64,000 bases of DNA from Conexibacter sp. CPCC 206217 (lineage in GTDB: Bacteria; Actinomycetota; Thermoleophilia; Solirubrobacterales; Solirubrobacteraceae). The stretch is taken from NCBI RefSeq assembly GCF_030646165.1, contig NZ_JAUTDO010000004.1, forward strand, positions 124,001 through 188,000, given 5' to 3'. Below are positions 5,979 to 22,793 of this stretch, piece after piece. The translations under genes and the position numbers were made by a program. Positions within the stretch are counted from its first letter, which is position 1. Each line of letters starts with the position of its first letter. The notes under the pieces are model-generated. The model was given only the letters and a program-made list of their open reading frames with translations, was not told the DNA's origin and did no database searches.

Positions 5979-7556
5979 TTAGGCGCCGGCGGTCGATGCG
6001 CTGACCGCCCGCTCCGTCAGCAGCGCGCGATCGACCTTGCCGCTGCCCGTGCGCGGCAGGTCGTCGACGATCACCGCGTGCTTGGGGACCTTGAAGTTCG
6101 CCAGCCGCGCGCGGCAGCCGCTCAGCACGTCCGCCGGCTCGACGACCGTGCCGGGGATCGGGCGCAGGAAGGCGAAGCCGACCTCGGCCCAGCGCTCATG
6201 CGGAACCGGGACGACCACCGCGTCGGCCAGGCCGGGATGGCTGCGCAGCGCCTCCTCGACCTCCTCGATCGCGATGTTCTCTCCGCCGGACTTGATCATC
6301 AGCTTCGCCCGCCCGCGGTAGTCGAGGAAGCCGCCGGGTCGCAGACAGCCGAGGTCGCCGGTGCGCAGGAAGCCGTCGTCGCCGAAGACCGCGGCGGTCG
6401 CGGCCGGATCGTCGAGGTAGCCGATCATCACCGACGCGCCGCCGCGCACGTGGATCTCGCCGACCTCGCCGTCCTCGACCTCCTCGCCGGTCGCGAGGGA
6501 GCGGATCGAGACCTCGATCCCCTCCTGCGGGCGGCCGATGTGCGCGAGCCGCTCCTCCAGCGAGGAGCGCAGGTCGCCGACGCAGACGTTCGGCGAGCAC
6601 TCCGTCAGGCCGTAGACGTTGGAGACCTCCGCGCCGAGCGCCGCGTGCGCGCGCTCGAACAGCGCGCGGTCCGCGGCCGTCGAGACCAGCCGCAGGCTCG
6701 GCAGCGGCGGCGCGCCGCCCTCCGCCGCCGCGACGAGGTCGCGCACCGCCGCGTCGATCAGCGGGGCGATCGTGATGCCGTGCTCTTCGATCCGCCGCAT
6801 CCCGTCCTCCAGCCGCCAGCGCGACATCAGCACGACGCAAGCGCCGTGCGCCGCGCCCGCCATGAACGAGAAGACGGAGCCGCCGCAGTGGAACAGCGGG
6901 TTGGAGACGAGCACGCGGTCGGCGGGACCGAGCTGCCACGCGCGCCCGAGCCCCCAGCCGTTCTCGACCAGCCCACGGTTGCGCAGCATCGCGCCCTTCG
7001 GGAACGAGGTCGAGCCGGACGTGAACTGGATCAGGCCGACGGCGTCGCCGTCCTCCTCGCAGTCGGTCAGCAGCGTCTCGGCGCGCAGCGCGTCGAAGCG
7101 CAGCTCGTGCGCCGCGGTCGGCGTCCCGCCGACGACCGCGCGGCCCGCCAGCGGCAGCCCGCCACGCTCGAACGCGTCGAGCGCGGCGCCGTCGAGCAGC
7201 CCGTCGCCGGGCCGCCACACGAGCCGGCTGACGCGCCCGCGCCGCAGCACGTCCTCGGCCTCCGCGAGCGAGAAGCGCGTGTTGAGCGGGACGACGACCG
7301 CGCCCAGCCGCGCGAGCGCGAACCACAGCTCCAGCCACTCGCGGCAGTTGTCCATCCAGATCGCGACATGGTCGCCGCGCCGCACGCCCCACGCGCGCAG
7401 ACCGCCGGCGAGGCGCATCGACGCCTCTGCCAGCTCGACGACGGTGACCGCGCCGGCATCGTCGCGGATCTGCATCTGCGGCACACGCGCGGCCAGCGCG
7501 TCGAGCAGCTCGGTCAGGCCGGCCGGCAGCTCGGCGCGGGTCTCGAAGAGGCTCAT
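5979..7556 (-). CDS. AMP-forming acyl-CoA synthetase A
   Basis: The 525-aa protein belongs to the ANL superfamily and should activate a carboxylic acid to its acyl-CoA through an acyl-adenylate. Visible core motifs are FTSGSTSFPKGA (A3, phosphate loop), NVYGLTECSPN (A5), RTGDLG (A8), the hinge followed by KSGGENIAIEEVEEAL, and RTGSGKVDRALL with the catalytic Lys (A10). Start: ATG at 7556 with GGGAGGA upstream; the longer upstream reading frame is Arg/Gly-rich and not protein-like. The ATGA overlap with the cobalamin-binding subunit upstream shows translational coupling. It is the last gene of the 16-gene operon. The substrate cannot be read from the sequence; the operon context suggests a branched or dicarboxylic acid. 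Confidence 0.88.
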   Translation of the reverse strand: MSLFETRAELPAGLTELLDALAARVPQMQIRDDAGAVTVVELAEASMRLAGGLRAWGVRRGDHVAIWMDNCREWLELWFALARLGAVVVPLNTRFSLAEAEDVLRRGRVSRLVWRPGDGLLDGAALDAFERGGLPLAGRAVVGGTPTAAHELRFDALRAETLLTDCEEDGDAVGLIQFTSGSTSFPKGAMLRNRGLVENGWGLGRAWQLGPADRVLVSNPLFHCGGSVFSFMAGAAHGACVVLMSRWRLEDGMRRIEEHGITIAPLIDAAVRDLVAAAEGGAPPLPSLRLVSTAADRALFERAHAALGAEVSNVYGLTECSPNVCVGDLRSSLEERLAHIGRPQEGIEVSIRSLATGEEVEDGEVGEIHVRGGASVMIGYLDDPAATAAVFGDDGFLRTGDLGCLRPGGFLDYRGRAKLMIKSGGENIAIEEVEEALRSHPGLADAVVVPVPHERWAEVGFAFLRPIPGTVVEPADVLSGCRARLANFKVPKHAVIVDDLPRTGSGKVDRALLTERAVSASTAGA

Positions 7557-8035
7557 CGCACGTCCTCCCTCGTCGCTCCGTGCGCCCCGCCGCCGGCCGC
7601 CACGGCCCCAGGCGCCTCTGCCGCGGACGCACCGGCCGCAGGCGCGCGCCGCACCTCCGCGAACCACCGCTCGACGACCTCCAGCCGCGTCCCGACCGGG
7701 AACACCGCCGCGATCCCCGCCGCCTCCAGCGCCGGGATCTCGCGCCGCAGGATCGTCCCGCCCATCACGACCGGCACGTCGACCTGCTCGGCCCGCAGCG
7801 CGCCGATCACGTCGGCGGCGAGCGCGTGCTGGGTGCCCGACAGCACCGACAACCCGACGACGTCGACGTCCTCCTGCGCCGCGGTCCGCGCGATCCCTTC
7901 CGGCGTCTGGCGGCGGCCGAGGTAGACGACGTCGTGGCCGGCGTCGCGCAGCATCCGCGCGATCACCTTGATGCCGCGATCGTGGCCGTCCATGCCGACC
8001 TTCGCCAGCAGCACGCGCAGCCCCGTCCCTGCCAT
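7553..8035 (-). CDS. Cobalamin-binding small subunit of acyl-CoA mutase A
   Basis: This 160-aa protein is the B12-binding half of a two-subunit acyl-CoA mutase, like IcmB or HcmB rather than the fused MutB of methylmalonyl-CoA mutase. All base-off/His-on signatures are intact: DGHDRG (DxHxxG, the His that ligates cobalt), GLSVLSG (SxL) and VVMGGTI (GG). The fold ends near residue 135; the last ~25 residues are an Ala/Gly tail. It starts one base after the stop of the large subunit at 8037-9617 and overlaps the ligase downstream by ATGA, so the three are coupled. A paralogue serves mutase B at 16060-16488. Confidence 0.9.
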   Translation of the reverse strand: MAGTGLRVLLAKVGMDGHDRGIKVIARMLRDAGHDVVYLGRRQTPEGIARTAAQEDVDVVGLSVLSGTQHALAADVIGALRAEQVDVPVVMGGTILRREIPALEAAGIAAVFPVGTRLEVVERWFAEVRRAPAAGASAAEAPGAVAAGGGAHGATREDVR

Positions 8036-8036
8036 C

Positions 8037-9617
8037 TCAGACCACCGTCCCCGGCTCGGCGTACTCGCCGTAGCGCACGACGCAGCGGTCCATGATCTCG
8101 CCGACGGTTGCCCCGGCGCGCAGCGCCAGCCGCATCGGGTCGATCGTGTCGCCGTCGCCGTCGAGCGCCGCGGTCAGCTCGTCCAGCCGCTGCTGAACGA
8201 GCGCCGCCGGTCGCGCCGCGCGGTGCGCGGCCAGCGCCGCCCGCTTGCGCGCGCCCATCGTGTTGTCGTGCTCGTGCAGGTCGAAGTCCGGGTCGGCGAG
8301 CGGCGGGCTGCCGGGCGTGTTGACGCCGACGACCATCCGCTGGCCGCTCTCCTCCTCGAGCTGGTAGCTGTACGCGGCGTCGGTGATCGCGCGCTGCATC
8401 AGCCCGTCCTCGATCGCCGCGATCGCGCCGCCGGCCTCGTCGACCTCGGCGAGCGTCGCGCGCATCTCGGCCAGCAGCCGGTCGGTCGTCGCCTCGACGT
8501 AGTAGCTGCCGCCGAGCGGGTCGACGACCTCCGGCAGCTTCGACTCGTAGGCGATCACCTGCTGCGTGTAGAGGCCCAGCAGCGACGAGTACTCCGACGG
8601 GATCTCGAACGCCTCGTCCATCCCCGCCACCAGCATCGCCTGGCAGCCGCCGAGCACCGCGCCGAGCGCCCCGAGCGTGTTGCGCACGAGGTTCAGCTCC
8701 GGGTACTGCGCGCGCAGGTTGAAGTTGCCGATCGCGGCCGAGAAGCGCAGCCGCTGACCGGACGGCGCCTCGACGCCGTAGCGGTCGCGCACCAGCTCGG
8801 CCCACAGCACGCGCGCGGCGCGGAACGCGCACGCCTCCTCCAACAGGTTCGAGTCGGCGAAGAAGAGGAACGAGAAGCGCGCGGTCGCGACCTCCATGTC
8901 GACGTCGCGCTCGCGCAGCGCGTCGAGGCACGCGCAGGCGCAGGCGAACGCGAACGCGAACTCGTGGATCACGGAGCCGCCGGCCTCGTAGACGAGCGTC
9001 CCGCGCAGGTTGACCGGATAGTAGGAGGGGGTGTGGCGCAGCGCGTACGCGTACGTGTCGGCCATCAGCCGCATCGCGCCCGCGGGCGGCACGCGCCACA
9101 GGCCGCGCGCGACGAACTCGATCAGCGGATCGTTGGAGAGCGTCCCGGTGAGGCGGTCCAGCGGCACGCCCTGCGCGTCGGCGGTCTCCAGCAGCAGCGC
9201 GAACATGACGGGCGCCGCGGCGTTGATGTTGAAGGTCGCGGCGGTCTCCCCGAGCGGGATCCCGTCGAACATCGCGATCACGTCGTCGAGCGTGTCGACC
9301 GCGACGCCGAGGCGCCCCGCGTCGTCGTTGGCGCGCGGGTCGTCGGAGTCGAGCCCGAGCTGCGTCGGCAGGTCGAACGCGGCGCTGATGCCGTGCTGGC
9401 CCTTCGCGATCAGCTGCTTCCAGCGCTCGTTCGTGTCCTCGGGCGTGCCGAAGCCGGCGTACTGCCGCATCCGCCACAGCCGCTCGCGGTACATCTCGGG
9501 GTGGATCCCGCGACGGAACGGGAAGCTGCCCGGCCGCTCGGCGGCGGCCGCGGGGTCGACGTCCTCGGCGGTGTAGAAGGCGCGTGTCGCACGCGCGCCG
9601 TCGGGATGGATCGTCAT
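8037..9617 (-). CDS. Coenzyme-B12-dependent acyl-CoA mutase A, large (catalytic) subunit, atypical
   Basis: The 526-aa protein is the TIM-barrel subunit of the methylmalonyl-CoA mutase family; the radical carbon-skeleton rearrangement needs the small subunit at 7553-8035. Family marks are RQYAGFGTPEDTNERW, ISAAFDLPTQLGLDSD, GTLSNDPLIEF, FLFFADSNLLEE, ELNLVRNTLGAL and DPLGGSYYVE. By eye alignment to methylmalonyl-CoA mutase, the Tyr (QYAGF) and Arg (AMRLM) that contact the substrate carboxylate are kept. The active-site His of GYHMQEAG is Leu here (RGTLVYEAG), and LRTHxQTSG has become LRFSAAIGN. Known methylmalonyl-, isobutyryl-, ethylmalonyl- and 2-hydroxyisobutyryl-CoA mutases keep QTSG, so this is a divergent class with an unpredicted substrate. 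A short alternating stretch FAFAFACACAC lies just after the changed His position. It overlaps MaoC (9614-10033) by ATGA. Confidence 0.88.
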   Translation of the reverse strand: MTIHPDGARATRAFYTAEDVDPAAAAERPGSFPFRRGIHPEMYRERLWRMRQYAGFGTPEDTNERWKQLIAKGQHGISAAFDLPTQLGLDSDDPRANDDAGRLGVAVDTLDDVIAMFDGIPLGETAATFNINAAAPVMFALLLETADAQGVPLDRLTGTLSNDPLIEFVARGLWRVPPAGAMRLMADTYAYALRHTPSYYPVNLRGTLVYEAGGSVIHEFAFAFACACACLDALRERDVDMEVATARFSFLFFADSNLLEEACAFRAARVLWAELVRDRYGVEAPSGQRLRFSAAIGNFNLRAQYPELNLVRNTLGALGAVLGGCQAMLVAGMDEAFEIPSEYSSLLGLYTQQVIAYESKLPEVVDPLGGSYYVEATTDRLLAEMRATLAEVDEAGGAIAAIEDGLMQRAITDAAYSYQLEEESGQRMVVGVNTPGSPPLADPDFDLHEHDNTMGARKRAALAAHRAARPAALVQQRLDELTAALDGDGDTIDPMRLALRAGATVGEIMDRCVVRYGEYAEPGTVV

Positions 9618-10033
9618 CGCGCGCGCTCCGGTCGGGCCAGCCGCGCCGTCGCGGTCACGCCGGCGCTGCCGTCAGGGAGCAGGACGGCGAGGCGGACGTC
9701 GCCGTCGCGCACGTCGCCGCGTGCGCCGCGAGCGCCGGACTCGGCGCCGCCGCTCTCCACCGGCTCCCCGCTCACGACGTACTCGACCCCCGGCCGCAGC
9801 GGGGCGCGGAAGCGCAGGTCGGCGAGCGAGCCGTGCGTCAGCCAGGCCGCGCCCCACTCGCGCAGCGCCCACTCGCTCAGCCACGCGATCGTCAGGTGGC
9901 CGTGCAGGATCGTGCCGCCGTAACGCGTCCCCGCCGCGTAGGCGGGGTCGACGTGCAGCGGATTGAGGTCGCCCGACAGCTCACCCCAGTCGTTCAGCGT
10001 CGCCTGGTCGACCTGCTTGGTCAGCGGATTCAT
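9614..10033 (-). CDS. MaoC-like enoyl-CoA hydratase, catalytic half
   Basis: This is a 139-aa hot-dog protein with the MaoC active-site motif SGDLNPLHVDPAYA, in which Asp and His form the hydratase dyad. GGTILHGHLTIAWLSE follows, which lines the substrate tunnel. It should add water to an enoyl-CoA. The adjacent gene upstream (10030-10500) is a hot-dog half without the His, so the two probably form a heteromeric hydratase like ChsH1/ChsH2-type two-gene MaoC enzymes. The last ~30 residues are Gly/Arg-rich. ATGA overlaps join it to both neighbours. Confidence 0.82.
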   Translation of the reverse strand: MNPLTKQVDQATLNDWGELSGDLNPLHVDPAYAAGTRYGGTILHGHLTIAWLSEWALREWGAAWLTHGSLADLRFRAPLRPGVEYVVSGEPVESGGAESGARGARGDVRDGDVRLAVLLPDGSAGVTATARLARPERAR

Positions 10034-10500
10034 CTGCCATCTCCCTCAGGCCAGCGCGCATCGATCGTGACCGCGCCGGCGCGCGCGCCCGCCGCCGTGT
10101 GCGCCTCGCAGGCGAGCAGCACGCGGCGTCTGGGATCGTCCGGCTCGTGCTCGGCGACGCGCGCCGACAGCGTCAGCGTCTCGCCGACCGGCACCGCCGC
10201 GGTGAACGCGAGCTGCTGGCCGGCCATCACGCCGCCGGGCAGCATCCGGTGGCGCGCGAGGTAGGAGCGGCGCGCCCACACGCCCGCGAGGCCTGGCGGC
10301 ATCGCGGGTCCGTCGAGTCCGGCCGCGCGGGCGGCGCGGGCGTCGTCGTAGAGCGGGTTGTCGTCGCCGGTCAGCGCGACGTACGCGCGCACCAGCTCCG
10401 GCGTGACGGGGAACTGCTGCGCGTCGAACTCGCGTCCGGCGTACAGCGAGGCGTAGGGCAGCGGTGGCAGGCGATCAGCGGCGGGCGTCCGTGAGCTCAC
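10030..10500 (-). CDS. MaoC-like hot-dog protein, non-catalytic half
   Basis: This 156-aa protein has the N-terminal MaoC/FAS1-dehydratase-like hot-dog fold: FPVTPELVRAYVALTGDDNP, then a VMAGQQLAFTAAVPVGETL strand. In the position of the catalytic His (NPxHxD) it has Tyr (NPLYDD), so on its own it should be inactive. It probably completes the acyl-CoA tunnel of the catalytic half encoded next (9614-10033). It overlaps the lyase gene upstream by 26 bases, which is longer than the usual 4-base overlaps in this operon. Confidence 0.78.
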   Translation of the reverse strand: MSSRTPAADRLPPLPYASLYAGREFDAQQFPVTPELVRAYVALTGDDNPLYDDARAARAAGLDGPAMPPGLAGVWARRSYLARHRMLPGGVMAGQQLAFTAAVPVGETLTLSARVAEHEPDDPRRRVLLACEAHTAAGARAGAVTIDARWPEGDGR

Positions 10501-11377
10501 GGCTGCGCACCTCCTTCAGGACGTGGGTGATGTCGCGGGCCGCCGCGCTCAGCGCGGCGGCGTCGAGGTCGGTGGCGACGCCGGCGCGGTGCAGCGCCGC
10601 GACGACCAGCTCGGTCGGGACGTTGCCGGGCGCGTGCGGGACGAACGGGCAGGCGCCGAGGCCGCTCGTGGAGGCGTCGACGAGCGTCGCGCCGGCGTCG
10701 ATCGCGGCGAGCACGTCGCCGACCGCGCCGGGGCCGCCGTGCAGGTGGATCCCGAGCGGGATGACGGGCAGCTCGAACGCGAGCCGGCCGACGAGCGCGG
10801 CGACCTCGCCGTCCTTGGCGACGCCGATCGTGTCGGCGACGAAGAGGCTCTCGGCGGCCGACTGCGCAAGCTGGGACGCGAGCGCGGAGACCGTCTCGGG
10901 CGCGACCGCGCCCTCGAACGGACAGCCGAACGCGCCGCCGATCGTGACCGAGCTGCGCACGCCCGCGGCGTGCGCCTGCGCGACGACGGCCAGCACCTCG
11001 GCGAGCGCCGCGTCGCGGTCCATCCCGAAGTTCTCGCGTGAGAGCGTGTCGGTGCTCGCGACGGCGAGCGAGACCTCCTGCGCGCCGGCGGCGAGCGCAC
11101 GCTCGAGCCCGCGGCGGTTCGGCACGAAGACCGATCGCACGAGCCCGTCGAGGTCGCGCTCGGCGAGCTGCGCGAGCAGCTCCTGCGCGTCGGCGAACTG
11201 CGGCAGCTTGCGCGGGTGGACCATCGAGCTGACCTCGATCCAGCGCAGCCCGGCCTGCCACAGGCGCTCGACGATCGCGAGCTTCGTCGCGGTCGGGATC
11301 AGCGCGCGCTCGTCCTGGAAGCCGTCGCGCGGCAGCACCTCGCGCACGGACACGGGCCTGGGCACGGCGGCGGCCAT
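10475..11377 (-). CDS. Hydroxymethylglutaryl-CoA lyase-like enzyme
   Basis: The 300-aa protein belongs to the HMGL/DRE-TIM family and should make a retro-Claisen cleavage of a 3-hydroxy-3-alkyl-acyl-CoA carrying a terminal carboxylate. Visible are LPRDGFQDE (the Arg-Asp pair of VGPRDGLQNE), metal-binding HxH as GIHLHGG, and the Cys loop GLGACPFVPHAPGN (human GLGGCPYAKGASGN) with the catalytic Cys and the metal-binding Asn. The usual HCHDT is HLHGG, so it has some drift at the metal site. The ATG at 11377 overlaps the LLM gene stop by one base (TGATG). In this operon it may act after MaoC hydration to cut the rearranged skeleton; true HMG-CoA cleavage (leucine pathway) is an alternative. Confidence 0.82.
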   Translation of the reverse strand: MAAAVPRPVSVREVLPRDGFQDERALIPTATKLAIVERLWQAGLRWIEVSSMVHPRKLPQFADAQELLAQLAERDLDGLVRSVFVPNRRGLERALAAGAQEVSLAVASTDTLSRENFGMDRDAALAEVLAVVAQAHAAGVRSSVTIGGAFGCPFEGAVAPETVSALASQLAQSAAESLFVADTIGVAKDGEVAALVGRLAFELPVIPLGIHLHGGPGAVGDVLAAIDAGATLVDASTSGLGACPFVPHAPGNVPTELVVAALHRAGVATDLDAAALSAAARDITHVLKEVRSRELTDARR

Positions 11378-12339
11378 CAGACGCCGACCCCCGCGACGAC
11401 GTCCGCGAGCAGCTCCAACTGGCGCATCAGGACCGGCAGGTTGGGGTTCGGCAGGTCGATCGCGAGGCGTTCGAGACCGAGCGAGGCATAGCCGCCCAGC
11501 AGCTCCTCCAGCTCGCCGCGCTCGAGCGCGCGGCGGCGCCCCTGCGGGCCGCCGGCGGCGGCCGGGTCGACGATCCGCGTCACCATCGAGAGGCTGACGG
11601 GCACCGGCTCGCGCCCGACGGAGGCGGCGTACTCCTCCATGTAGGCGATCCCGCGGCCGAGGTGCTCGGGCGCCACGTGCGCCGGCAGCCAACCGTCGCC
11701 GCGGTCGACGGCGCGGCGGATCGCGGCTCTGGAGCCGCCGCCGATCAGGAACGGCGGCATCGGCCGCTGCACCGGCTCGATCAGCGGCAGCACCGACGGC
11801 AGCTTCACGGTCGGCCCGTCGAAGCTCGTCTCTCTGCCGCGCAGCAGTGCGCGCATCACGTCGATGTACTCGTCGGTCCGTCTGCCGCGCTCGCGGTAGG
11901 GGATCCCGAGCGCGTCGAACTCGGCCGCGACGTGGCCGGCGCCGATCCCGAAGACCATCCGCCCGCCCGACAGCACGTCGAGCGTGCCGAGCATCTTCGC
12001 CTGCGCGACCGGATCGCGGTACGGCAGCACGACGATCCCGCTGGCCAGCTCGACGCGCTCGGTGATCCCGGCGAGGAAGCCCCACAGCGCGTAGGGATCG
12101 AGCCACCAGTTCTCCTCGCCGTAGTACTCGACGGCGCTGAACGCCTCGTTGCCGTAGTCGTCCGGGTTCAGCCACGACGCCTGCAGCTCGACCGGCGAGC
12201 TGTCGCCGGTCGGCGCGACGAGATGGTCCTGCACCCACAGCGAGCCGAAGCCGAGCTGCTCCGCCGCGGTCGCGATCTGCCGCACCGCCTCGCCGCCGAT
12301 CCAACGGCGATAGCAGGGAATCCACACACCGACTCTCAC
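11377..12339 (-). CDS. LLM-class (F420- or FMN-dependent) oxidoreductase
   Basis: The 320-aa protein has the luciferase-like monooxygenase TIM barrel: N-terminal VGVWIPCYRRWIGGE, EQLGFGSLWVQDH, ELASGIVVLPYRDPVAQAKM, TLDVLSGGRMVFGIGAGH, and PPFLIGGGSRAAIRRA. Cofactor choice between F420 and FMN cannot be decided by eye; actinobacterial members with RDPVAQAK and GGRMxxGIGAG are often F420-dependent. It sits inside the mutase operon between the crotonase and the lyase. It may therefore carry out a redox step on the acyl-CoA or precursor. It overlaps the crotonase upstream by 4 bases (12336-12339). Confidence 0.82.
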   Translation of the reverse strand: MRVGVWIPCYRRWIGGEAVRQIATAAEQLGFGSLWVQDHLVAPTGDSSPVELQASWLNPDDYGNEAFSAVEYYGEENWWLDPYALWGFLAGITERVELASGIVVLPYRDPVAQAKMLGTLDVLSGGRMVFGIGAGHVAAEFDALGIPYRERGRRTDEYIDVMRALLRGRETSFDGPTVKLPSVLPLIEPVQRPMPPFLIGGGSRAAIRRAVDRGDGWLPAHVAPEHLGRGIAYMEEYAASVGREPVPVSLSMVTRIVDPAAAGGPQGRRRALERGELEELLGGYASLGLERLAIDLPNPNLPVLMRQLELLADVVAGVGV

Positions 12340-13100
12340 GCAAGCTCCTCCTCGGCACTGCTTTGCACGACGTCCTGCGGCCGCGGGTCAGCGGCGTCCT
12401 GCTGCTCGCTCGCGAACGACTGCGAGCCCAAGATCTCCAGTTGCTGAGCGGTGCGCTCGCGGGCCGCCTCGGTGCGGAAGCGCGCCTGCCAGGAGCGGCG
12501 GGCGGCGTCGGTCACCTGCGGGCGCGCGGCGGCGATCGCGCACCAGCGCTCGACGGCGGCGTCGAGCCGGCCGCCGTCGACCGCCTCCGTCGCGAGGCTC
12601 ATCGCGACCGCGTCGGCCGCCGTCACGCGCGCGCCCGTCAGCCCCATCTCCAGGCTGCGCCGCGCCCCCGCGAACGGCTCCACGTACGGCAGCACACCGG
12701 ACGGGAACAGCCCGATCTGCAGCTCCGGCAGCGCCAGCCAGGCATCGTGCGCCATCACCGCGACCGGGCAGATCGCCGCGACCGCGACGCCCGCGCCGAG
12801 CGCCGGCCCGTCGAGCGCGGCGATCCAGAACAGCGGCCGCTCCAGCAGCAGCGCGAAGAAGCGATCCGCGGCGGGACGGTCGCGCTCGGCGATCGCCTCG
12901 CCGAGGTCGTTGCCGGCGCAGAAGATCGGCGGATCGGCGCGCAGCAGCGCGACGCTGACGCCCGCGTCCTCGAACGCGTCGACCGCCCGCTCCGCCTCGT
13001 CGACGAGCGCGTGGCTGAGCGCGTTGCGCTTCGCCGGCCGCGTCAGCCGCAGCTCGCCGATGCCGTCGGGGCGCACGCGGCTGGTGACGAGCGGGGTCAT
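12336..13100 (-). CDS. Enoyl-CoA hydratase/isomerase (crotonase) family protein 1
   Basis: The 254-aa crotonase-fold protein has LTRPAKRNALSHALVDE, the oxyanion loop FCAGNDLGEA, and ALDGPALGAGVAVAAIC. Compared with rat enoyl-CoA hydratase, the first catalytic Glu (CELAM) is replaced, while the second is kept in LPELQIGLFP. It may be an isomerase or a specialised hydratase rather than a classical one. The C-terminal ~30 residues are acidic and Gln-rich. Start: ATG at 13100 with GGAGCG five bases upstream is preferred over an in-frame GTG at 13118. A 79-base gap, the only one of any size inside the operon, separates it from the ligase gene upstream. Confidence 0.8.
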   Translation of the reverse strand: MTPLVTSRVRPDGIGELRLTRPAKRNALSHALVDEAERAVDAFEDAGVSVALLRADPPIFCAGNDLGEAIAERDRPAADRFFALLLERPLFWIAALDGPALGAGVAVAAICPVAVMAHDAWLALPELQIGLFPSGVLPYVEPFAGARRSLEMGLTGARVTAADAVAMSLATEAVDGGRLDAAVERWCAIAAARPQVTDAARRSWQARFRTEAARERTAQQLEILGSQSFASEQQDAADPRPQDVVQSSAEEELA

Positions 13101-13179
13101 GCCACGCTCCGTTCGCACGCGACCGTGGCGAGCGTCGCCCGCGTGGGTGTCGCGCCCGTCCGCGAGTCCGTCGTGCGCG

Positions 13180-14814: not shown

Positions 14815-16063
14815 GCACTCTCTCCTCTCCCACCGCGCGCTCCAGCTCCTCGCGGAACGCGGGCGCGGCGATCTCGATCAGGGCTGCGGCGCGCTGCGCG
14901 AGCGTGCGGCCGCGCAGGTCCGCGACGCCGTGCTCGGTGACGATCACCTGGACGGCGTGGCGCGGGGCGGTCACCGGCGTGCCGGTCAACAGCGCGGGCA
15001 CGATCGCGGAGACCGTCCCGCCGCGCGCGGTCGAGCGCAGCGCGACGATCGACAGGCCGCCGTCGGACAGCGTCGCGGCGTCGAGGAAGTCGAACGAGCC
15101 GCCCGGCCCGCTGACCTGCCGCCCGCCCGCGAACTCGGCGTTGACCTGCCCGTGCAGGTCGACCTCGACGGCTCCGTTGACCGACACGAAGCGGGGGATC
15201 GCCGCCAGCCGCGGGACCGACAGGATCTCCGCGATCGGGTACTGCTCGATCGTCGGCTGCTCGTGCGCGTAGCGGTACAGCAGCTCGGAGCCCAGCAGCT
15301 CGCCGCCGACGAACGCGCCGGGCCGGTCGAGCGTGCGCAGCAGCGGCACCATCGCGTCGATCCCCATCCCGAACAGGCGCAGACCCGGCGGCGGCTCCTG
15401 CGCCCAGTGCGTCACGAGCGCCTCCGGCACCCCGCCGAGGCCGATCTGCACGGTCGCGTCGTCGGGCACCAGCTCGCGCAGGTGCGCCGCTATCGCCGCT
15501 TCGGCGTCGGACGGCTGCCGCGCCACGTGCGTCGGCAGCGGATGCTCGGCGTCGACCAGCGCCGCGAAACGCTCGACCGGCACGCGCGTGCGACCGCGCG
15601 TGACCGGCATCTCCGGATTGACCTCGGCGATCACCGTCGGCACGTGGTCGAGCGCGCCGAGCGCGTAGCTGACGGAGGCGCCGAAGCTGACGTGGCCGTC
15701 GCGGTCCGGGGGCGAGACGACGGTGAGGAAGACGTCGGGCGCGAGCCGCTCGATCGCGCGCGGGACGGCGCCGCCGCGCACGAGGTGGAAGCCGACGTCG
15801 CCGCGGGCGACGTCGTCGCGGATCGGAGGGGTGACGTGCCAGGTGTCATAGCTCGCGTGGCCGCTGCGGACCGCGTCGATGAAGTCGTACCCGCCCAGCT
15901 GCATCCCACCGCACAGGCGAATCCCCGCGAGCCGATCCCGCTGCTGCGCAAGCGCCCGCTGCAAGGTGGTCGCGGCGCCCGCGGCGGTGCCGAGCAGGAC
16001 GCGCCGGCCCGGCTCGACGTGGCGTTCGAGCGCTGCGGCGGCGGTCGTGGTGGCGACGCTCAT
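14801..16063 (-). CDS. Acetyl-CoA hydrolase/4-hydroxybutyrate-type CoA-transferase
   Basis: The 420-aa protein belongs to the family-I CoA-transferase/acetyl-CoA hydrolase group, which moves CoA between acids through a glutamyl-CoA thioester. Recognisable blocks are LTVVSPPDRDGHVSFGASVS, VQIGLGGVPEALV, FGMGIDAMVPLL, SVNGAVEVDLHGQVNAEF, GGRQVSGPGGSFDFLDAA and VIVTEHGVADLRGRTL, the family's usual order. It gives the pathway a ligase-independent way to activate its acid. Start: ATG at 16063 with AGGAGGG upstream; the upstream open extension in frame is a shadow of the next gene. It overlaps the small subunit of mutase B by 4 bases. Confidence 0.87.
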   Translation of the reverse strand: MSVATTTAAAALERHVEPGRRVLLGTAAGAATTLQRALAQQRDRLAGIRLCGGMQLGGYDFIDAVRSGHASYDTWHVTPPIRDDVARGDVGFHLVRGGAVPRAIERLAPDVFLTVVSPPDRDGHVSFGASVSYALGALDHVPTVIAEVNPEMPVTRGRTRVPVERFAALVDAEHPLPTHVARQPSDAEAAIAAHLRELVPDDATVQIGLGGVPEALVTHWAQEPPPGLRLFGMGIDAMVPLLRTLDRPGAFVGGELLGSELLYRYAHEQPTIEQYPIAEILSVPRLAAIPRFVSVNGAVEVDLHGQVNAEFAGGRQVSGPGGSFDFLDAATLSDGGLSIVALRSTARGGTVSAIVPALLTGTPVTAPRHAVQVIVTEHGVADLRGRTLAQRAAALIEIAAPAFREELERAVGEERVRVRA

Positions 16064-16488
16064 CGCGCGCCCTCCTGGTCCCGCTGGGCGGCGGAGCGAG
16101 CCGCTCCCGCATCCCGCTCCGCCGCCCAAGCCACGATCTCGTCCAACCGCGACCCGACCGGGAACACCGCGCCGCAGCCGAGCGCCAACAAGCGCTCGAC
16201 GTCGCGGTCCGGGATCGTCCCGCCGACGATCACGTCGCAACTCGCGTCCTGCGCCCGCAGCCGCTCGATCACCTCCGCCGTCAGGCCGAGATGGCCGCCC
16301 GCGAGGATGCTCAGGCCGACGACGTCGACATCCTCCTCCAGCGCCGCGCGCGCGATCGCGTCGGGGGACCAGAAGCGGCCGGTCAGGACGACCTCGTGAC
16401 CGGCGTCGCGCAGCGCGCGACCGAGCACGTGGACGCCGCGGTCGTGACCGTCGAGGCCCGGCTTCGCCAACAGGATCCGCACGCTCAC
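16060..16488 (-). CDS. Cobalamin-binding small subunit of acyl-CoA mutase B
   Basis: The 142-aa B12-binding subunit starts at GTG 16488, which overlaps the stop of the large subunit (GTGA). Motifs are complete: LDGHDRG (cobalt-ligating His), GLSILAGG (SxL) and VIVGGTIPD (GG). It is a paralogue of the subunit at 7553-8035 but diverges outside the motifs, which argues that each small subunit serves its own large subunit. Lengths of 135-160 aa match IcmB/HcmB. Confidence 0.9.
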   Translation of the reverse strand: MSVRILLAKPGLDGHDRGVHVLGRALRDAGHEVVLTGRFWSPDAIARAALEEDVDVVGLSILAGGHLGLTAEVIERLRAQDASCDVIVGGTIPDRDVERLLALGCGAVFPVGSRLDEIVAWAAERDAGAARSAAQRDQEGAR

Positions 16489-18083
16489 GCCCGCCCGAGC
16501 GCGCTGGCGGCCGGCGTCAGCGCCCGCGACAGCGCCGCCGAGATCTCCCCGACGGTCGCGTAGCTCTCGACCGCCGCGACGATCGCGTCCATCGCCGACG
16601 CGCCGGGATCGGACGCGACCGCTTCGAGCCGCTCCAGCGCATCGGCGACCAACGCGTCGTCGCGCTCCGCCCGCAGCGCCGCCAGCGCCGCGACGCGCCG
16701 CTCGCCGACGCCGTCGTCGGGCTCCCACAGCTTCAGCTGCGCCGCCGGCTGCTTGCTGCGGTGGACGTTGACGCCGACGACCGGCCGCTCACCGCGCTCG
16801 ATCTCCTGCGCGACCGCGTAGGAGCGGTCGCGCATCATGCCCTGGATCCGCTCGTCGGAGAGCGCCGCGTCGATCCCGCCCCAGTCCGCGATCTGCCGCC
16901 GCATCGCGCCGGCCTCCTGCTCGATCCGGTCGGTCATCGACTCGACGAACCACGAGCCGCCGAGCGGGTCGACGGTCGCGCGCACGTCGCTCTCCAGCGA
17001 GACGATCTGCTGCACCCGCAGCGCCAGCTCCTGCGCGCGCTCGCTCGGGATCTCGTACGCCTCGTCGATCGCGGTGCCGACCATCGTCTGCACCCCGCCG
17101 AGCGAGCAGGCGAGCACGCCGAGCGCGCTGCGCACGAGGTTCAGCTCCGGGTCCTCGCGCACGAAGTGGCTGCCGTTGCAGGCGACCGCGGTCATCCGCA
17201 GCCGCAGCGCGCGCGGGTCGCTGACGCCGTACTCGTCGCGCAGCATCCGCGCCCACATCCGCCGCGCGGCGCGCAGCTTGGCGGCGTCCTCGAACAGCCG
17301 CGGGCTGGTGCCGAAGAACAGCGACATGCGGGCGGCGCTCTCGGCTGCCGGGATCCCGCGCTCCAGCAGCAGGTCGATGTAGCGGGCCGAGATCGCGAGC
17401 GCGATCCCCAGCTCCTGCGCGGGGCTGGCGGCGATCTCGTGCAGCAGCGCGGCGCGCACGTTGAAGGCCCAGAAGCCCGGCATCCGCTCGATCAGGAACG
17501 CGGCGGCGTCGGTCTGCAGGCGCAGCGAGCCGGGCAGGTCCCAGATCGTCAGGCCGCGGCAGGCGATCTCGTTGAGCATGTCGTTGGAGAGCGTCCCGCG
17601 CAGCTGGTCGAGCGGGATCCCGCGCTGTCTCGCGACGGCCGCCAGCATCGCGACGACGACCGGCGCGAGCGCGTTCATGTTCATCGTGATCGGGACGCGC
17701 TCGAGCGGGATCCCGTCGAGCAGCGTCTCGAAGTCACGCAGCGAGTCGATCGCGGTGCCGACGCGGCCGACCTCGTGGCGCGCCTGCGGCGCGTCGGAGT
17801 CGAGGCCCAGCTGCGTCGGCAGGTCGAACGCGATCGAGACGCGGCCGTTGCCCTCCGCCAGCAGGAATCTGAAGCGCTCGTTCGCCTGCGCCGGCTCGCC
17901 GTGGCCGGAGTAGAGGCTCGGCTGCCACGGCCGGTCGCGGTAGCCCTCCGCGCGCACGTGGCGCGTGTAGGGGAACTCGCCGGGCGCGCCGAGCTGCTCG
18001 TCGTAGTGCGCGTCCGGCCACGCCGGGCGGTACTCGCGCTCGATCTCGAAGCCGGTCTCGGAGCGGATCGGGGTCGTGCTCAT
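16485..18083 (-). CDS. Coenzyme-B12-dependent acyl-CoA mutase B, large (catalytic) subunit, atypical
   Basis: The 532-aa paralogue of mutase A has VSIAFDLPTQLGLDSDAP, TMNMNALAPVVVAML, GTLSNDMLNEIACRG, SLFFGTSPRLFEDAAKLRAA, ELNLVRSALGVL and DPLGGSWFVESMTDRI. It keeps the carboxylate-contacting Tyr (SLYSG) and Arg (SLRLQ). As in mutase A, the active-site His position is Leu (RAALLHEIA), and QTSG is replaced (TAVACNGSHF). The same two losses in both copies suggest a shared divergent family rather than decay. Start: ATG at 18083, overlapping the LivF stop as TGATG, with GGGAG eight bases upstream. The partner small subunit follows immediately. Confidence 0.88.
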   Translation of the reverse strand: MSTTPIRSETGFEIEREYRPAWPDAHYDEQLGAPGEFPYTRHVRAEGYRDRPWQPSLYSGHGEPAQANERFRFLLAEGNGRVSIAFDLPTQLGLDSDAPQARHEVGRVGTAIDSLRDFETLLDGIPLERVPITMNMNALAPVVVAMLAAVARQRGIPLDQLRGTLSNDMLNEIACRGLTIWDLPGSLRLQTDAAAFLIERMPGFWAFNVRAALLHEIAASPAQELGIALAISARYIDLLLERGIPAAESAARMSLFFGTSPRLFEDAAKLRAARRMWARMLRDEYGVSDPRALRLRMTAVACNGSHFVREDPELNLVRSALGVLACSLGGVQTMVGTAIDEAYEIPSERAQELALRVQQIVSLESDVRATVDPLGGSWFVESMTDRIEQEAGAMRRQIADWGGIDAALSDERIQGMMRDRSYAVAQEIERGERPVVGVNVHRSKQPAAQLKLWEPDDGVGERRVAALAALRAERDDALVADALERLEAVASDPGASAMDAIVAAVESYATVGEISAALSRALTPAASALGRA

Positions 18084-18901
18084 CAGAAGTGCTCCCACAG
18101 GCCGCGGGTGTCGGCGACGTCGGCGGGCCGGCCGCTCCAGACGACGTCGCCCTGGCGCACCGCGACGAGCCGGTCGGCGCGCGTCAGCAGCACGTCGAGG
18201 TTCTGCTCGACGATCGCGACCGTGTAGCCGTGCTCGCGGCGGTGCTCGTCGACGGTCTCCATGATCTGCTTGACCAGCAGCGGCGCGAGGCCCAGCGACG
18301 GCTCGTCGAGCAGCAGCAGCTGCGGTGCCAGCCGCAGCGCCATGCCGATCGCGAGCATCCGCTGCTCGCCACCGCTGAGGTTGCCGGCCGGCGTCGCGAT
18401 CCGCTCGCGCAGGACTCCGAACATCTCCAGCACCGCGTCGGCCGGCACCAGCTCGCCGCCGGCTCTGCGGGCCAGCTCCGGCACCGCGAGGTTCTCCCCG
18501 ACGGTCATGCGCGGGAAGACCGACAGCCCCTGCGGCACGAGCCCGATCCGCAGCGCTCTGCCGCTCTCGTCCTGCGTGCGCACGGTGCCCTTGGAGACCG
18601 GCAGGAAGCCGGCCATCACCTTCAGCAGCGTCGACTTGCCGGCGCCGTTGTGGCCGATGATCCCGAGCAGCTCGCCGTCGCGGACGTCGAGGTCGACGCC
18701 GCGCAGCACGTCGAACGTGCCGTAGCCAGCGACGACGCCGCTGAGCGCCGCGACGGCGCGCGGCGCGGCCGACGGCTGCTGCGCCGCCGCCGTCGCGGCG
18801 GCGGAGCCGTTCGCGCTCGCGCTCTCCTGCGCGCCGACTCCGGCTCCGGCCTCGGCTCCGGCGCCCGCGCCTGCGCCCGTGGTGCTCGCCTGCACGCTCA
18901 C
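18083..18901 (-). CDS. livF: ABC transporter ATP-binding protein, LivF type
   Basis: The 272-aa ATPase of a branched-chain-amino-acid-type (HAAT) importer has Walker A GHNGAGKST, Q-loop LVPQGLSVFP, signature NLSGGEQRML, Walker B LLLLDEPSLGL and the switch region VAIVEQNL. The GTG start at 18901 overlaps the upstream stop (GTGA) and follows AGGAG. The first ~45 residues are an unusual Gly/Ala/Glu/Ser-rich low-complexity head that normal LivF lacks, followed by the canonical domain at AVAALSGVVAGYGTFDVL. It works with the LivM-LivG fusion and LivH encoded upstream. Confidence 0.88.
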   Translation of the reverse strand: MSVQASTTGAGAGAGAEAGAGVGAQESASANGSAAATAAAQQPSAAPRAVAALSGVVAGYGTFDVLRGVDLDVRDGELLGIIGHNGAGKSTLLKVMAGFLPVSKGTVRTQDESGRALRIGLVPQGLSVFPRMTVGENLAVPELARRAGGELVPADAVLEMFGVLRERIATPAGNLSGGEQRMLAIGMALRLAPQLLLLDEPSLGLAPLLVKQIMETVDEHRREHGYTVAIVEQNLDVLLTRADRLVAVRQGDVVWSGRPADVADTRGLWEHF

Positions 18902-20610
18902 ATCACTCCTTCCGGGGTCTTCTTCGGCGCGCTCTCCTCGGCGACGCCGAAGTAGATCGCGGCCAGTCTCGGATCGCTCGTGATCTGCTCCGGCGAGCCG
19001 GTCGCGAGCACCTCGCCGAGGTGCAGGAAGACCATCTCGTCCGACAGCTCGGACAGCACCTTCGTGTTGTGCTCGACGATGCAGACGCTGCGCCCGTCCT
19101 GCGCGAGGCCGCGGACGATCTCCGTCATCCGCGCGAGCGTCGCCGGGTCCAGCCCCGAGGCCGGCTCGTCGAGCAGCACGACGCGCGGCTTCGCCGCGAT
19201 CACGCGCGCGAGGCTGAGCAGCTTCTGCTCCGCGTAGGAGAGGTCGCGCGCGCGACGGTCGAGGCCCTCCGTCAGGCCGACCGCGCCCAGCGCCGCGCCC
19301 GCCTCCTGCGCGGCGCGTCTGAGCGCGGCACGCGCGCGGCGGCGGCGCAGCAGCGCGGTCACCGCGCCCTCGTCGTGCCCGAGCGGGACGGCGACCATCA
19401 CGTTCTCCAGCGCGGTCAGCTCCTCGAACAGCCGCAGCCCCTGGAAGGAGCGCAGCAGGCCGTGGCGGGCGCGCGCGTCGAAGCCGAGCTTGTCGATCGT
19501 CGAGGCGTCGAGCGCGACCGTGCCGGCGTTGGCCGGCTGCGCGCCGGTGACGAGGTCGAACAGCGTTGTCTTGCCGGCGCCGTTGGGGCCGACGACGCCG
19601 GTCACGCGCCCGGGGGCGAGCGACAGGTCGACGTCGGTGACCGCCTTGATGCCGCCGAAGGCGCGGGTCAGACCGCGCCCCTCCAGCGTCGCGCCGGACA
19701 CGTGCACGATCTCGCCGCCGACGTCGTGCGGGGCCGGCTGGGCGTGGCGCCGCGGCTTCACGATGCCGCGCCGCAGCACGACGACGACGAGCAGCAGCAC
19801 GACCCCGAACAGCAGCTCGCGGATGTAGACGACGGTGCTGCTGGTCGCGCCGAGCTGGTCCAGCAGCTCCGGCAGCGCGACGATCAGGATCGAGCCGACG
19901 AGCGGCCCGAGCATGCTGCCCGCTCCGCCGACGATCACCATCGACAGCAGCAGGATCGAGAAGTGCACGTCGAACGTCGCCGGCAGGATGTAGCCGAGGT
20001 AGCTGGCGTAGACCGCGCCCGCGACCGCCGCCAGCATCGCCGAGACGGTCACGACGGCGACCTTCGCCAGCGCCGGGCGCTTGCCGAGCGCGCGCGCCGC
20101 GACCTCGTCCTGCCCGGACGCGCGCAGCACCAGCCCGAACGGGGAGCGGTCGACGCGCCGCGCGGCCTCCATGCAGATCACGAGCACGATCGCGGCGGCG
20201 AAGACGAGGTCCCACGGCGTGTCGAAGGCGAAGCCGAAGATCTCGATCCCGGGGATCCCCGGGATGCCGTAGGTGCCGCCGGTGAAGTCGTGGAAGCTCT
20301 CCAGCGCCGAGGTCATCACGATCTGCAGCGCGAACGTCGCGATCGCGAGGTAGTCGTCGGAGATCCGCAGCGCGAGCAGGCCGATCATCAGCCCCGCGAC
20401 GCCCGCCAGCGCGATGCCGGCGATCGCCGCGACCAGCCACGGCAGGTCGTAGCGGATCGCGCCGATCCCGATCGCGTAGGCGCCGAAGCTGACGAAGGCG
20501 CCCTGCGCCACCGAGAAGAGGCGGCTGAAGCCGAGCAGCAGGTTGTACGAGCTGGCGATCGCGCCGAACAGCAGGACCTGCGTGATGATGCCGAGCGTGT
20601 AGGGACTCAT
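18898..20610 (-). CDS. Fused LivM permease and LivG ATPase of HAAT-type ABC importer
   Basis: Residues 1-~300 are a LivM-like permease with multiple membrane segments (VLLFGAIASSYNLLLGFSRL, IVGGAGSMLGPLVGSILIV). Residues ~325-570 are a LivG-type ATPase with Walker A GPNGAGKTT, signature DLSYAEQKLL, Walker B VVLLDEPASGLD and CIVEHNTKV. A LivM-LivG fusion is less common than separate genes but is known in this family. The signature is SYAEQ instead of SxGEQ, typical of LivG. It overlaps livF by 4 bases and lies 4 bases after livH. In this context the transporter should import the substrate of the mutase pathway rather than, or besides, amino acids. Confidence 0.88.
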   Translation of the reverse strand: MSPYTLGIITQVLLFGAIASSYNLLLGFSRLFSVAQGAFVSFGAYAIGIGAIRYDLPWLVAAIAGIALAGVAGLMIGLLALRISDDYLAIATFALQIVMTSALESFHDFTGGTYGIPGIPGIEIFGFAFDTPWDLVFAAAIVLVICMEAARRVDRSPFGLVLRASGQDEVAARALGKRPALAKVAVVTVSAMLAAVAGAVYASYLGYILPATFDVHFSILLLSMVIVGGAGSMLGPLVGSILIVALPELLDQLGATSSTVVYIRELLFGVVLLLVVVVLRRGIVKPRRHAQPAPHDVGGEIVHVSGATLEGRGLTRAFGGIKAVTDVDLSLAPGRVTGVVGPNGAGKTTLFDLVTGAQPANAGTVALDASTIDKLGFDARARHGLLRSFQGLRLFEELTALENVMVAVPLGHDEGAVTALLRRRRARAALRRAAQEAGAALGAVGLTEGLDRRARDLSYAEQKLLSLARVIAAKPRVVLLDEPASGLDPATLARMTEIVRGLAQDGRSVCIVEHNTKVLSELSDEMVFLHLGEVLATGSPEQITSDPRLAAIYFGVAEESAPKKTPEGVM

Positions 20611-20614
20611 CGCC

Positions 20615-21487
20615 TCACCCCGTCCGCGTCTGGACCGCCGCCCGCAGCCCCGAGGGGCGCGCCACGAGCATCAGCGCGAGGACGGCGAAGGTCACGATCG
20701 TCTGCCACTGCGCGCTGATCCACAGCAGCACGACGTTCTCCAGCAGGCCGAGCGCGAAGGCCGCGAGCATCGCGCCCGACTGCCGCTCGGTGCCACCCGC
20801 GATCACCGCGATGATCGCGATCAGCACGGGCGTGAAGCCGAGGTCGGGGTTGACGCCGGTGCGCAGCGCCATCACGACGACGGCCGGCACCAGCAGCGCC
20901 GAGCCGAGGGCGAAGGCGATCCGGTACACGCGCGCCACCGGGATGCCGAAGTAGCCGGCCAGCTCCGGGTTGCCCTGCACCGCCCGCATCGAGCGGCCCC
21001 AGCGCGAGCGGCTCATGATCAGCCACACCAGCAGCCCGAAGCCGACTGCGAACGCGACGATCAACCCGTCGTAGCGCGTCACGGTGAATTCAGCGGCGCG
21101 GTAGAGCGGCTCCGGCACCGTCGTCTCCAGCCCGCGCGCGTCCTCCTGGAACAGCAGCGCGAGCACCGCCTGGGAGATCGTCAGCAGTGCCGAGGCGGCG
21201 AGGAACAGCAGCAGCTGGTCGCCGCCGTGGCGCCGGATCGGCTCGTAGATCACGCTCTCGATCAGGACCCCGAGCGCGACCGCAGCGCCGAGTGCCGCGA
21301 CGATCGCCAACCAGATGTTGGTGTCGAGGTCGACGAAGACCCAGTAGAGCACGTACGCCGCCACGTTCAGCACGGCGATGTGCGCGAGGTGGAACGTCCG
21401 GGTGACCGCGAAGATCACCCAGAAGCTCAACGCGAGGAGCGCGTACAGCGCTCCCTGCGAGATTCCGTTGACGAGGATCTGGGACAC
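20615..21487 (-). CDS. livH: HAAT-type ABC transporter permease, LivH type
   Basis: The 290-aa polytopic membrane protein has about eight hydrophobic segments, beginning GISQGALYALLALSFWVIFA. It has the family motif block RSRWGRSMRAVQGNPELAGYFGIPV, the EAA-like coupling helix that touches the ATPases. It ends in a short basic tail. The gene lies 7 bases downstream of the binding-protein gene, and is followed by the LivM-LivG fusion. Confidence 0.87.
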   Translation of the reverse strand: MSQILVNGISQGALYALLALSFWVIFAVTRTFHLAHIAVLNVAAYVLYWVFVDLDTNIWLAIVAALGAAVALGVLIESVIYEPIRRHGGDQLLLFLAASALLTISQAVLALLFQEDARGLETTVPEPLYRAAEFTVTRYDGLIVAFAVGFGLLVWLIMSRSRWGRSMRAVQGNPELAGYFGIPVARVYRIAFALGSALLVPAVVVMALRTGVNPDLGFTPVLIAIIAVIAGGTERQSGAMLAAFALGLLENVVLLWISAQWQTIVTFAVLALMLVARPSGLRAAVQTRTG

Positions 21488-21494
21488 GACCCGA

Positions 21495-22712
21495 TCAGCA
21501 CTCCACGGTGTCGATCGGGACGAATCTGCCGTCTCTCACCTGCAGCACCTGGAACGGCTTGCGCGCGATCGGGTCGCCGTCTCTGAATTCAGCGGTGCCG
21601 GTCGCAGCGGGGAATCTGCCGACTCTGAAGAAGGCGTCGTAGACCGTCTGCGGATCGTCCATGTCGCCGCCGTCGGCCTTGACGGCTCTCATCGCGTCGG
21701 CCAGCGCCATCACGCCGTCATAGAGGGTCGCGTGGTAGAAGGTCAGGTCGCTGGTGGCGGTGTCGGGCGACACTCTTCTGTACGCCTCGACGAACGCTCT
21801 CGTCTGCGGGTCGGTGCTGTTGGCGTCGAACAGGCCGGCGGTGTAGTAGGAGCCGTCGGCGGCGTCACCGGCGACCTGGATCGTCTGCGGAACGGCGGCG
21901 CCGGAGTAGGAGAGCGTTCTCGCGGTCATGCCGAGCTCTCTCATCTGCTTGAGGATGTTCCCGGGGTCGGAGCCGAAGGTGTAGATGTAGATCAGGTCCG
22001 GGTCCTCCTGCTTCAGGCGCGTGAGGATCGAGCGGAAGTCGGTGCTGCCCTGCGGCGCGCTCTCGCTGCCGACGACCTGGCCGCCCTTCTCCTCGAAGTC
22101 TCTGGAGAAGGCCTCGACACCGGCGCGGTTGGCGGCGATGTCGGCGAAGATCGCGCCGACTCTTCTGGCGCCGAGGTCGTCGTACGCGTACTGCGCCGCG
22201 CACTGCATCTCGTGATCCTGGCCGTTGAGCGTATGTATCGTGTGCGCGCCCATCGCGTCGGCGTCGAACGGCGGCGCGCCGGAGTTGACCAGCAGCATGT
22301 CCTGTCTGGCCGCGAGCGGGCCGATCGCGGTGACGACGGCGCTGAAGCCGACGATCCCGAATCTGTAGCCGTCGCTGGCGAACTTGTTGTAGGCGTTGAC
22401 GCCGTTCTGCGGGTCGCCGACGGTGTCGAAGACCTCGTAGTCGATCTTGCGCCCGTCGATGCCGCCTCTGGCGTTGAGCTGCTCGATCGCGGCTCTCGCG
22501 CCGTCGGTCATGAAGCGGCCGGTCACGGCGGCGTCGCCCGACTGGGGGATCAGGATGCCGAGTCTGACCGGGTCCGACGAGCCGCTGCCTGCACCCGTCG
22601 AGCTGCCCCCGCTTCCGCTCGCGCCCCCGCTGTCGTTGTCGCTGCTGCTGCCGCACGCGGCGAGCATGAGCGCCAACAGCACTGTCACGGCAACCGTCGT
22701 GATCTTGCGCAT
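21495..22712 (-). CDS. HAAT-type ABC transporter substrate-binding lipoprotein
   Basis: The 405-aa first gene of the operon encodes an exported lipoprotein: MRKITTVAVTVLLALMLAAC with lipobox LAAC (Cys20), then a Ser/Gly/Asp linker. The rest is the periplasmic-binding fold I (Peripla_BP_6): RLGILIPQSGDAAVTGRFM, IDGRKIDYEVFDTVGDPQ, and RTLSYSGAAVPQTIQVAG. It delivers the imported compound to LivH/LivM; amino-acid-type binding proteins of this family also carry aromatic and dicarboxylic acids. Start: ATG at 22712 with GGAGGAG seven bases upstream. Arginines are mostly AGA, unlike the following genes. Confidence 0.88.
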   Translation of the reverse strand: MRKITTVAVTVLLALMLAACGSSSDNDSGGASGSGGSSTGAGSGSSDPVRLGILIPQSGDAAVTGRFMTDGARAAIEQLNARGGIDGRKIDYEVFDTVGDPQNGVNAYNKFASDGYRFGIVGFSAVVTAIGPLAARQDMLLVNSGAPPFDADAMGAHTIHTLNGQDHEMQCAAQYAYDDLGARRVGAIFADIAANRAGVEAFSRDFEEKGGQVVGSESAPQGSTDFRSILTRLKQEDPDLIYIYTFGSDPGNILKQMRELGMTARTLSYSGAAVPQTIQVAGDAADGSYYTAGLFDANSTDPQTRAFVEAYRRVSPDTATSDLTFYHATLYDGVMALADAMRAVKADGGDMDDPQTVYDAFFRVGRFPAATGTAEFRDGDPIARKPFQVLQVRDGRFVPIDTVEC

Positions 22713-22793
22713 CGCATCTCTCCTCCGGACGCCGCCGTCACGGCGTCGTCGTGGTCTCTCTCCTCGACCGTTCAGACCCAGACTCGGACCTTA

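Follow-up and report, generated by a model that had tools for sequence, protein, structure and literature searches.

Two mutases of a putative new adenosylcobalamin-dependent acyl-CoA mutase clade in a predicted organic-acid regulon of Conexibacter sp. CPCC 206217

The window analysed here is a stretch of 64,000 nucleotides from Conexibacter sp. CPCC 206217 (contig NZ_JAUTDO010000004.1, positions 124,001 to 188,000 of the forward strand), with a GC content of 0.69-0.76 per 2-kb block; the host genome comprises 5.94 Mb in 28 contigs. Reading its open reading frames, we found 16 coding genes in one row on the minus strand, running from position 22712 to 5979 and including two sets of genes for B12-dependent acyl-coenzyme A (CoA) mutases, termed mutase A and mutase B, whose active sites are the main subject of this report. 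A first-pass annotation had proposed a same-direction operon of 16 genes. All of them were confirmed on the minus strand, with a GC content at third codon positions of 0.90-0.98 in each, and a shared palindrome described below goes beyond chance. At the 15 junctions overlaps of 4 bases (seven times), 1 base (twice), 14 bases (once) and 26 bases (once, at the gene of MaoC1) were observed, as well as gaps of 7, 4, 1 and 79 bases, the last (13101-13179) between the genes for ligase B and an enoyl-CoA hydratase. Start codons were selected among listed alternatives, and the junction lengths depend on that choice. The 1-, 4- and 14-base overlaps and the 79-base gap had been reported before, while the other three gaps, of 1 to 7 bases, and the overlap of 26 bases had been missed.

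The row starts with a LIV-type ABC importer, consisting of a substrate-binding protein (21495..22712; PF13458, 209 bits, LIV-binding relatives in the PDB) and, by family match, a LivH-type permease (20615..21487), a LivM-LivG fusion of permease and ATPase (18898..20610) and a LivF-type ATPase (18083..18901). It continues with the large (16485..18083) and the small, B12-binding (16060..16488) subunit of mutase B, a CoA-transferase-like protein with relatives among the 4-hydroxybutyrate CoA-transferases (14801..16063; PF13336), acyl-CoA ligase B (13180..14814; family match), a member of the enoyl-CoA hydratase/isomerase family (12336..13100; family match) and an LLM-class oxidoreductase (11377..12339; TIGR03619, 208.6 bits, cut-off 166.9). 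An enzyme resembling 3-hydroxy-3-methylglutaryl-CoA (HMG-CoA) lyase (10475..11377; PF00682) is followed by two MaoC-like proteins, MaoC1 with Tyr replacing the His of the motif (10030..10500; PF13452/PF01575) and the MaoC-like hydratase MaoC2 with an intact motif, GDxNPLHxD (9614..10033; PF01575); MaoC1 may serve as a helper partner of MaoC2 in a heterodimer. The large (8037..9617) and small, B12-binding (7553..8035) subunits of mutase A and acyl-CoA ligase A (5979..7556; family match) complete the row. Importer, mutases, ligases and lyase had been named in the first-pass annotation; the CoA-transferase-like gene (16063-14801) had been omitted.

Both large subunits passed TIGR00641 (mutase B 403.4 bits, mutase A 442.4 bits, cut-off 303.8) and both small subunits TIGR00640 (125.8 and 116.3 bits, cut-off 57.45), the B12-binding motif DxHxxG being present as DGHDRG in each of the latter. 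With NF006944, the equivalog model of methylmalonyl-CoA mutase, 337.7 and 378.2 bits were obtained, below its cut-off of 876, which is unreachable for a split protein because the 721-position model covers both domains. The large subunits of A and B are 42-43% identical. Their small subunits share 51% identity, each being slightly nearer to the small subunit of genome G028 (57.5 and 58.3%). For both mutases the closest solved sequence was the 2-hydroxyisobutyryl-CoA mutase 4r3u (376.7 and 305.2 bits), followed by methylmalonyl-CoA mutase. An AlphaFold model of mutase A from a two-row alignment reached a pLDDT of 43.5, and no structural claim made here rests on it.

Active-site positions were compared in a 58-row alignment using the numbering of the P. 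shermanii enzyme, with three rows, namely A, B and a protein from another genus (genome G774), set against 55 other mutases. These 55 are no census and were drawn, as best matches to A or B, mostly from the same order and family, with plasmid and PDB rows added; rows of less than 400 residues, including an IcmF-like protein of the own genome (L006/L007), were excluded from the count. At position 197, where 55/55 of the others carry Gln, A, B and G774 carry Ser, Ser and Ala. Position 244 is Leu in all three and His in 53 of the 55, the exceptions being the 1e1c chain, which we take to be an engineered mutant, and a Rokubacteria protein (L040). Further replacements were found at positions 243 (Thr/Ala/Ile in A/B/G774; Tyr in 51/55), 328 (Ser/Ala/Ser; His in 49/55) and 330 (Ala in all three; Gln in 50/55), positions 328-331 of B and G774 adjoining a one-residue insertion and possibly being off by one. 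Asn166, Leu178, Arg241 and Glu373 are common to the three proteins. All three retain Tyr89, Thr195, Glu203, Arg207, Glu247, Arg283, Arg326, Gln361 and Glu370. Gln197 and His244 were also present in those of the best-matching rows outside the clade that were read (L044, L045, L050-L052), and the IcmF-like row retains 197, 243, 244, 328 and 330 in a separate alignment. Using conservation of at least 95% in the other mutases as cutoff, 90 positions were obtained, of which 17 are altered in A, 21 in B and 16 in G774, and six (85, 166, 197, 202, 244 and 362) in all three. The pattern does not reflect mere fast evolution, because a very divergent paralogue of the own genome (L048, G000:C28:163000-181000) is altered at 22 of the 90 positions, yet retains Gln197 and His244. 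The Rokubacteria protein (MGBT01000175.1, match 10001-11305) carries Val89, His203, Gly207 and Asp244 and represents a second, different active-site departure.

We take Gln197 and His244 to be the partners of the thioester carbonyl, and Tyr89 and Arg207 to be the holders of the free carboxylate of the substrate. In the human enzyme MUT, one study implicates Gln218 (position 197) in transition-state stabilisation and lists Q218H as a catalytic mutant (PMC4441004), and another places Tyr110, His265 and Arg228 (positions 89, 244 and 207) in contact with the substrate (PMC11988910). Human and P. shermanii numbering differed by a single constant offset in our alignment. On this view of the residue roles, the carboxylate site of the three proteins appears intact and the carbonyl site rebuilt. 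The mostly smaller residues at 197, 243, 244, 328 and 330 would leave room for a large group or for a different migrating group.

Close relatives of mutase B were not found in 61 relatives or 399 genomes of the class, nor those of mutase A in 61 relatives or 396 genomes of the phylum. When 84,980 species, each represented by one genome, were scanned with a short pattern, eight stretches with one relative (41%, Rokubacteria) and no close one were obtained, and among 72,556 plasmid records 422 and 424 had a match, all below 60% identity, the best among the matches listed reaching about 40%. Using a two-row profile, one new match was identified in 146 genomes of the family, the G774 protein, at 621 bits; the next outside the own genome (G000) scored 494. 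A three-row profile gave 947-990 bits for G000 (twice) and G774 among 232 genomes of the order, with the remainder at 567 or below, and detected the own genome alone (1/396) in a sample of 396 phylum genomes without G774. The best rows outside this group are 43-45% identical (G238, G041, G486, G506, G515). A 49-row tree grouped A and B with a support of 100/98; a 30-row tree, its rows selected from the 58 and 10 of them at random, gave 99/98 for A with B and G774, and 100/99 for B with G774. Within the set of adenosylcobalamin acyl-CoA mutases compared, the three proteins represent a clade that is new. A comparable clade or operon was not found among the matches listed from the open-licence PMC literature.

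The CoA-transferase-like protein resembles the 4-hydroxybutyrate CoA-transferase 3eh7 across residues 9-409 of 420 (217.5 bits) and accompanies the mutase in the second genome. On the G774 contig (L077, 10.9 kb) the genes for mutase large subunit, small subunit and CoA-transferase-like protein follow in this order with 4-base overlaps each, their products being 51%, 52% and 40% identical to the large and small subunits of B and to the transferase-like protein of the window. They are preceded by genes for two hydratases, an FMN-dependent hydroxyacid dehydrogenase (minus strand) and a GlcD-like FAD oxidase, and followed by one unassigned gene and two short-chain dehydrogenase/reductase genes on the minus strand. 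In two of four plasmid loci (L062 and L064, not L061 and L063) the relative of the transferase-like gene adjoins a gene for HMG-CoA lyase.

A 16-base palindrome, ACTTGCTCGCAAGCAA, is present upstream of the binding-protein gene, as a putative operator (22793..22810, 80 bases from the start codon), and between a second hydratase gene and a thioesterase gene (23697..23714). The exact 16-mer occurs twice in the whole 5.94-Mb genome, both times at the cluster. Allowing up to two mismatches, five genome places were found, compared to three for the reversed control; allowing up to three within the window, 0.30 rows were expected and six observed, four of which are both sites on both strands. Because they share the palindrome, we tie three further genes to the cluster as members of the same putative regulon: the second enoyl-CoA hydratase (22894..23676, minus strand; PF00378, 194 bits), the 4HBT thioesterase (23729..24316, plus strand; PF03061, GTG start picked by eye) and MeaB, the mutase-associated GTPase (24384..25313, plus strand; TIGR00750, 278.3 bits, cut-off 240.75). 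A TetR protein (25354..26013, minus strand; PF00440, PF17932) is the candidate regulator acting at the palindrome. MeaB has three more paralogues in the own genome (41-50% identity), two of which (contigs C24 and C28) adjoin mutase genes, and also resembles part of the fused IcmF-like protein. Simple promoter and terminator scans across the region detected nothing, which says little at such GC content. Gene set, packing and palindrome support the view of the cluster as one regulon for organic-acid import and acyl-CoA breakdown, in line with the unit proposed in the first-pass annotation. Outside the cluster, a putative exported protein (4057-5922, minus strand), with weak matches to DUF3466 and carboxypeptidase-regulatory-like domains, lies 56 bases past the stop codon of ligase A, and a protein of 1061 amino acids (38776-41961, minus strand) combines AMP-binding, carrier and reductase domains and is carboxylic-acid-reductase-like by Pfam.

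For the function of this regulon we propose the import and CoA-dependent breakdown of a probably bulky dicarboxylic acid via a rearrangement of the substituted succinyl-/malonyl-CoA type by the new mutase clade, a reading to which we give about an even chance. The LIV-type importer would bring the organic acid into the cell, the ligases would activate it as CoA ester, and the CoA-transferase-like protein would put CoA onto the correct carboxylate. The mutases would then interconvert a substituted succinyl-type and a malonyl-type CoA ester, the second carboxylate resting on Arg207 and Tyr89; the changes of Gln197 to Ser/Ala and of His244 to Leu, together with mostly smaller neighbours, would provide space for a large group or mean that another group is moved. 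Hydratases, LLM enzyme and lyase would end the route with C-C cleavage. The first-pass annotation had regarded the mutases as other than ordinary methylmalonyl- or isobutyryl-CoA mutases, which residues, tree and separate mutase genes elsewhere in the genome bear out. Its expectation of an unusual substrate agrees with the replaced, mostly smaller pocket residues, which suggest a bulky one, while the route for a quaternary acid is only partly supported; a pivalate-like quaternary monoacid is not supported, as both mutases keep Tyr89 and Arg207 in common with methylmalonyl-CoA mutase, positions at which Ile and Gln stand in 2-hydroxyisobutyryl-CoA mutase. That annotation had noted neither the palindrome nor the loss of catalytic residues, nor the CoA-transferase-like partner.

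Several observations weigh against the proposed route. Position 87 in the CoA channel, Arg in 55/55 of the other mutases, is Ser in B and G774, position 236 of the same channel is Tyr/Trp/Tyr in A/B/G774, and G774 shows additional channel changes, Asn114 and Thr117. In the transferase-like protein, the Glu of 3eh7, presumably the catalytic residue of 4-hydroxybutyrate CoA-transferase, is not deleted but replaced by Gly, as it also is in 5/5 other relatives read (L061-L064 and L077, the last read by eye). The 16 genes include no counterpart of the acyl-CoA dehydrogenase found in the indoleacetate (iaa) pathway. Relatives of HMG-CoA lyase, MaoC, LLM enzyme, ligase, importer and MeaB were not found on the 10.9-kb contig of G774. 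Three members of the clade are known, from two genomes, one with a contamination estimate of 6.56% (the own genome) and one 75% complete (G774), and long branches in the trees make its position in the family unsure; long-branch attraction is made less likely by the residue replacements that the clade rows share. The ligases, the LLM enzyme and the binding protein gave no pointer to the substrate.

Other explanations were weighed against these data. Ordinary methylmalonyl-, isobutyryl- or 2-hydroxyisobutyryl-CoA mutases were ruled out by residues and trees, and we consider it very improbable that A and B are such enzymes in housekeeping or in a known pathway. Their closest solved relatives are of this kind and Tyr89/Arg207 match methylmalonyl-CoA mutase, but Gln197 and His244 are gone from both, A and B fall in a separate clade, plasmid-record matches are as distant as described above, and the own genome has further mutase loci on contigs C12, C24, C28 and C26. 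A division of the 16 genes into two separately controlled units at 13101-13179, the largest gap in the run, is improbable too, since this gap lacks the palindrome, the copies of which sit at the divergent promoter and ahead of the first gene of the row. Somewhat less improbable, though still unlikely, is a loss of catalysis in A and B, whether as decaying copies or as proteins comparable to the beta subunit of two-subunit methylmalonyl-CoA mutase. Two catalytic residues are lost along with the other near-invariant positions counted above, and the readable beta-subunit rows lack 197 and 244 as well, Leu244 of the clade recurring in one such row. However, 4/4 of these rows also lack Tyr89, Thr195, Arg207, Gln361 and Glu370, a wider pattern, and the operon is without a canonical partner large subunit. 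The losses are common to a protein of another genus, hence maintained over time, and the carboxylate and other positions as well as the B12-subunit motif are intact. For this yardstick four of eight fetched loci were usable, only one of the four scoring above the TIGR00642 cut-off; the longest frame of L099 was a catalytic-type neighbour, and the frames of L101, L102 and L104 did not align as mutases and were judged antisense. The narrower residue loss favours a working enzyme in the clade.

Such an enzyme could run a different radical reaction, in which another group is moved or an elimination takes place, or use a substrate other than a CoA thioester, which we consider about as unlikely as a dead enzyme. 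The loss of the presumed carbonyl partners in 3/3 clade rows, Ser87 in two of the three and Tyr/Trp236 in all three would fit, but the operon is rich in acyl-CoA enzymes and Arg283, Arg326 and Gln361 are retained. To our knowledge, there is no precedent in this fold for a different reaction or a non-CoA-thioester substrate. A bolder reading, which we consider less likely than not, is that the clade may be a new class of adenosylcobalamin enzymes with the methylmalonyl-CoA mutase fold, used twice in one undescribed catabolic pathway, in which Gln197/His244 do not hold the group that is moved, either since another group migrates or since no carbonyl shift occurs. His244 and Gln197 are taken as central to the movement of the thioester by these radical enzymes. 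A clade without both residues, found in two genera with the same CoA-transferase-like neighbour, offers a direct test of the necessity of carbonyl partners, and might be of use for carbon-skeleton rearrangement of bulky acids in degradation or synthesis.

By its gene content, the regulon appears to match no known pathway found in the searches made. With the large subunit of methylmalonyl-CoA mutase the clade shares TIGR00641, Tyr89, Arg207, a separate B12 subunit and MeaB close by, but it replaces Gln197, Tyr243, His244, His328 and Gln330 and forms its own clade. 2-Hydroxyisobutyryl-CoA mutase 4r3u likewise has a separate small subunit and, in Methylibium, an AMP-binding ligase and MeaB as neighbours; it differs by Ile89, Asp116, Gln207, Gln197 and His244, A and B having Tyr, Ala and Arg at 89, 116 and 207. 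A mutase of this type with Ile89/Asp116/Gln207 and an adjoining MeaB paralogue is encoded elsewhere in the own genome (L047, G000:C24:489000-508000). Isobutyryl-CoA mutase carries Phe89 and Gln207, where the clade has Tyr and Arg. The HMG-CoA-lyase-like enzyme contains, by eye in the alignment, the RDG, Glu, HxH, Cys and Asn positions, which we take to be the catalytic residues of HMG-CoA lyase, but scored 9.3 bits below the NF004283 cut-off (236.7 versus 246) and has HLHG for HCHD. From 3eh7 the transferase-like protein differs by the Gly for Glu, shared with relatives in Rhodococcus and others.

The CoA transferase of the iaa operon belongs to family III. In plasmid loci L055 and L057 a family III CoA-transferase gene also stands beside genes for a hydratase and for mutase large and small subunits, and L057 has a divergent major facilitator superfamily gene with an aromatic-acid symporter as nearest model, below cut-off. 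The mutases of L055, L057 and L053 carry Ala243, Gly328 and Val330, a part-widened pocket, and retain Gln197 and His244; those of L055 and L057 are candidate arylsuccinyl-CoA mutases. For the indoleacetate pathway, the published account describes a CoA transferase and a mutase reaction of the type phenylsuccinyl-CoA to benzylmalonyl-CoA (PMC8360864). According to the same account, the anaerobic iaa operon shares with the window a binding protein, a CoA ligase, a CoA transferase and a dicarboxylyl-CoA mutase in one cluster (PMC8360864). It differs in its acyl-CoA dehydrogenase IaaF, which has no counterpart among the 16 genes, whereas the window has two mutases and a transferase of another family. 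By analogy with L055/L057 and the indoleacetate pathway, a widened pocket next to a CoA-transferase gene would point to bulky dicarboxylyl-CoA substrates.

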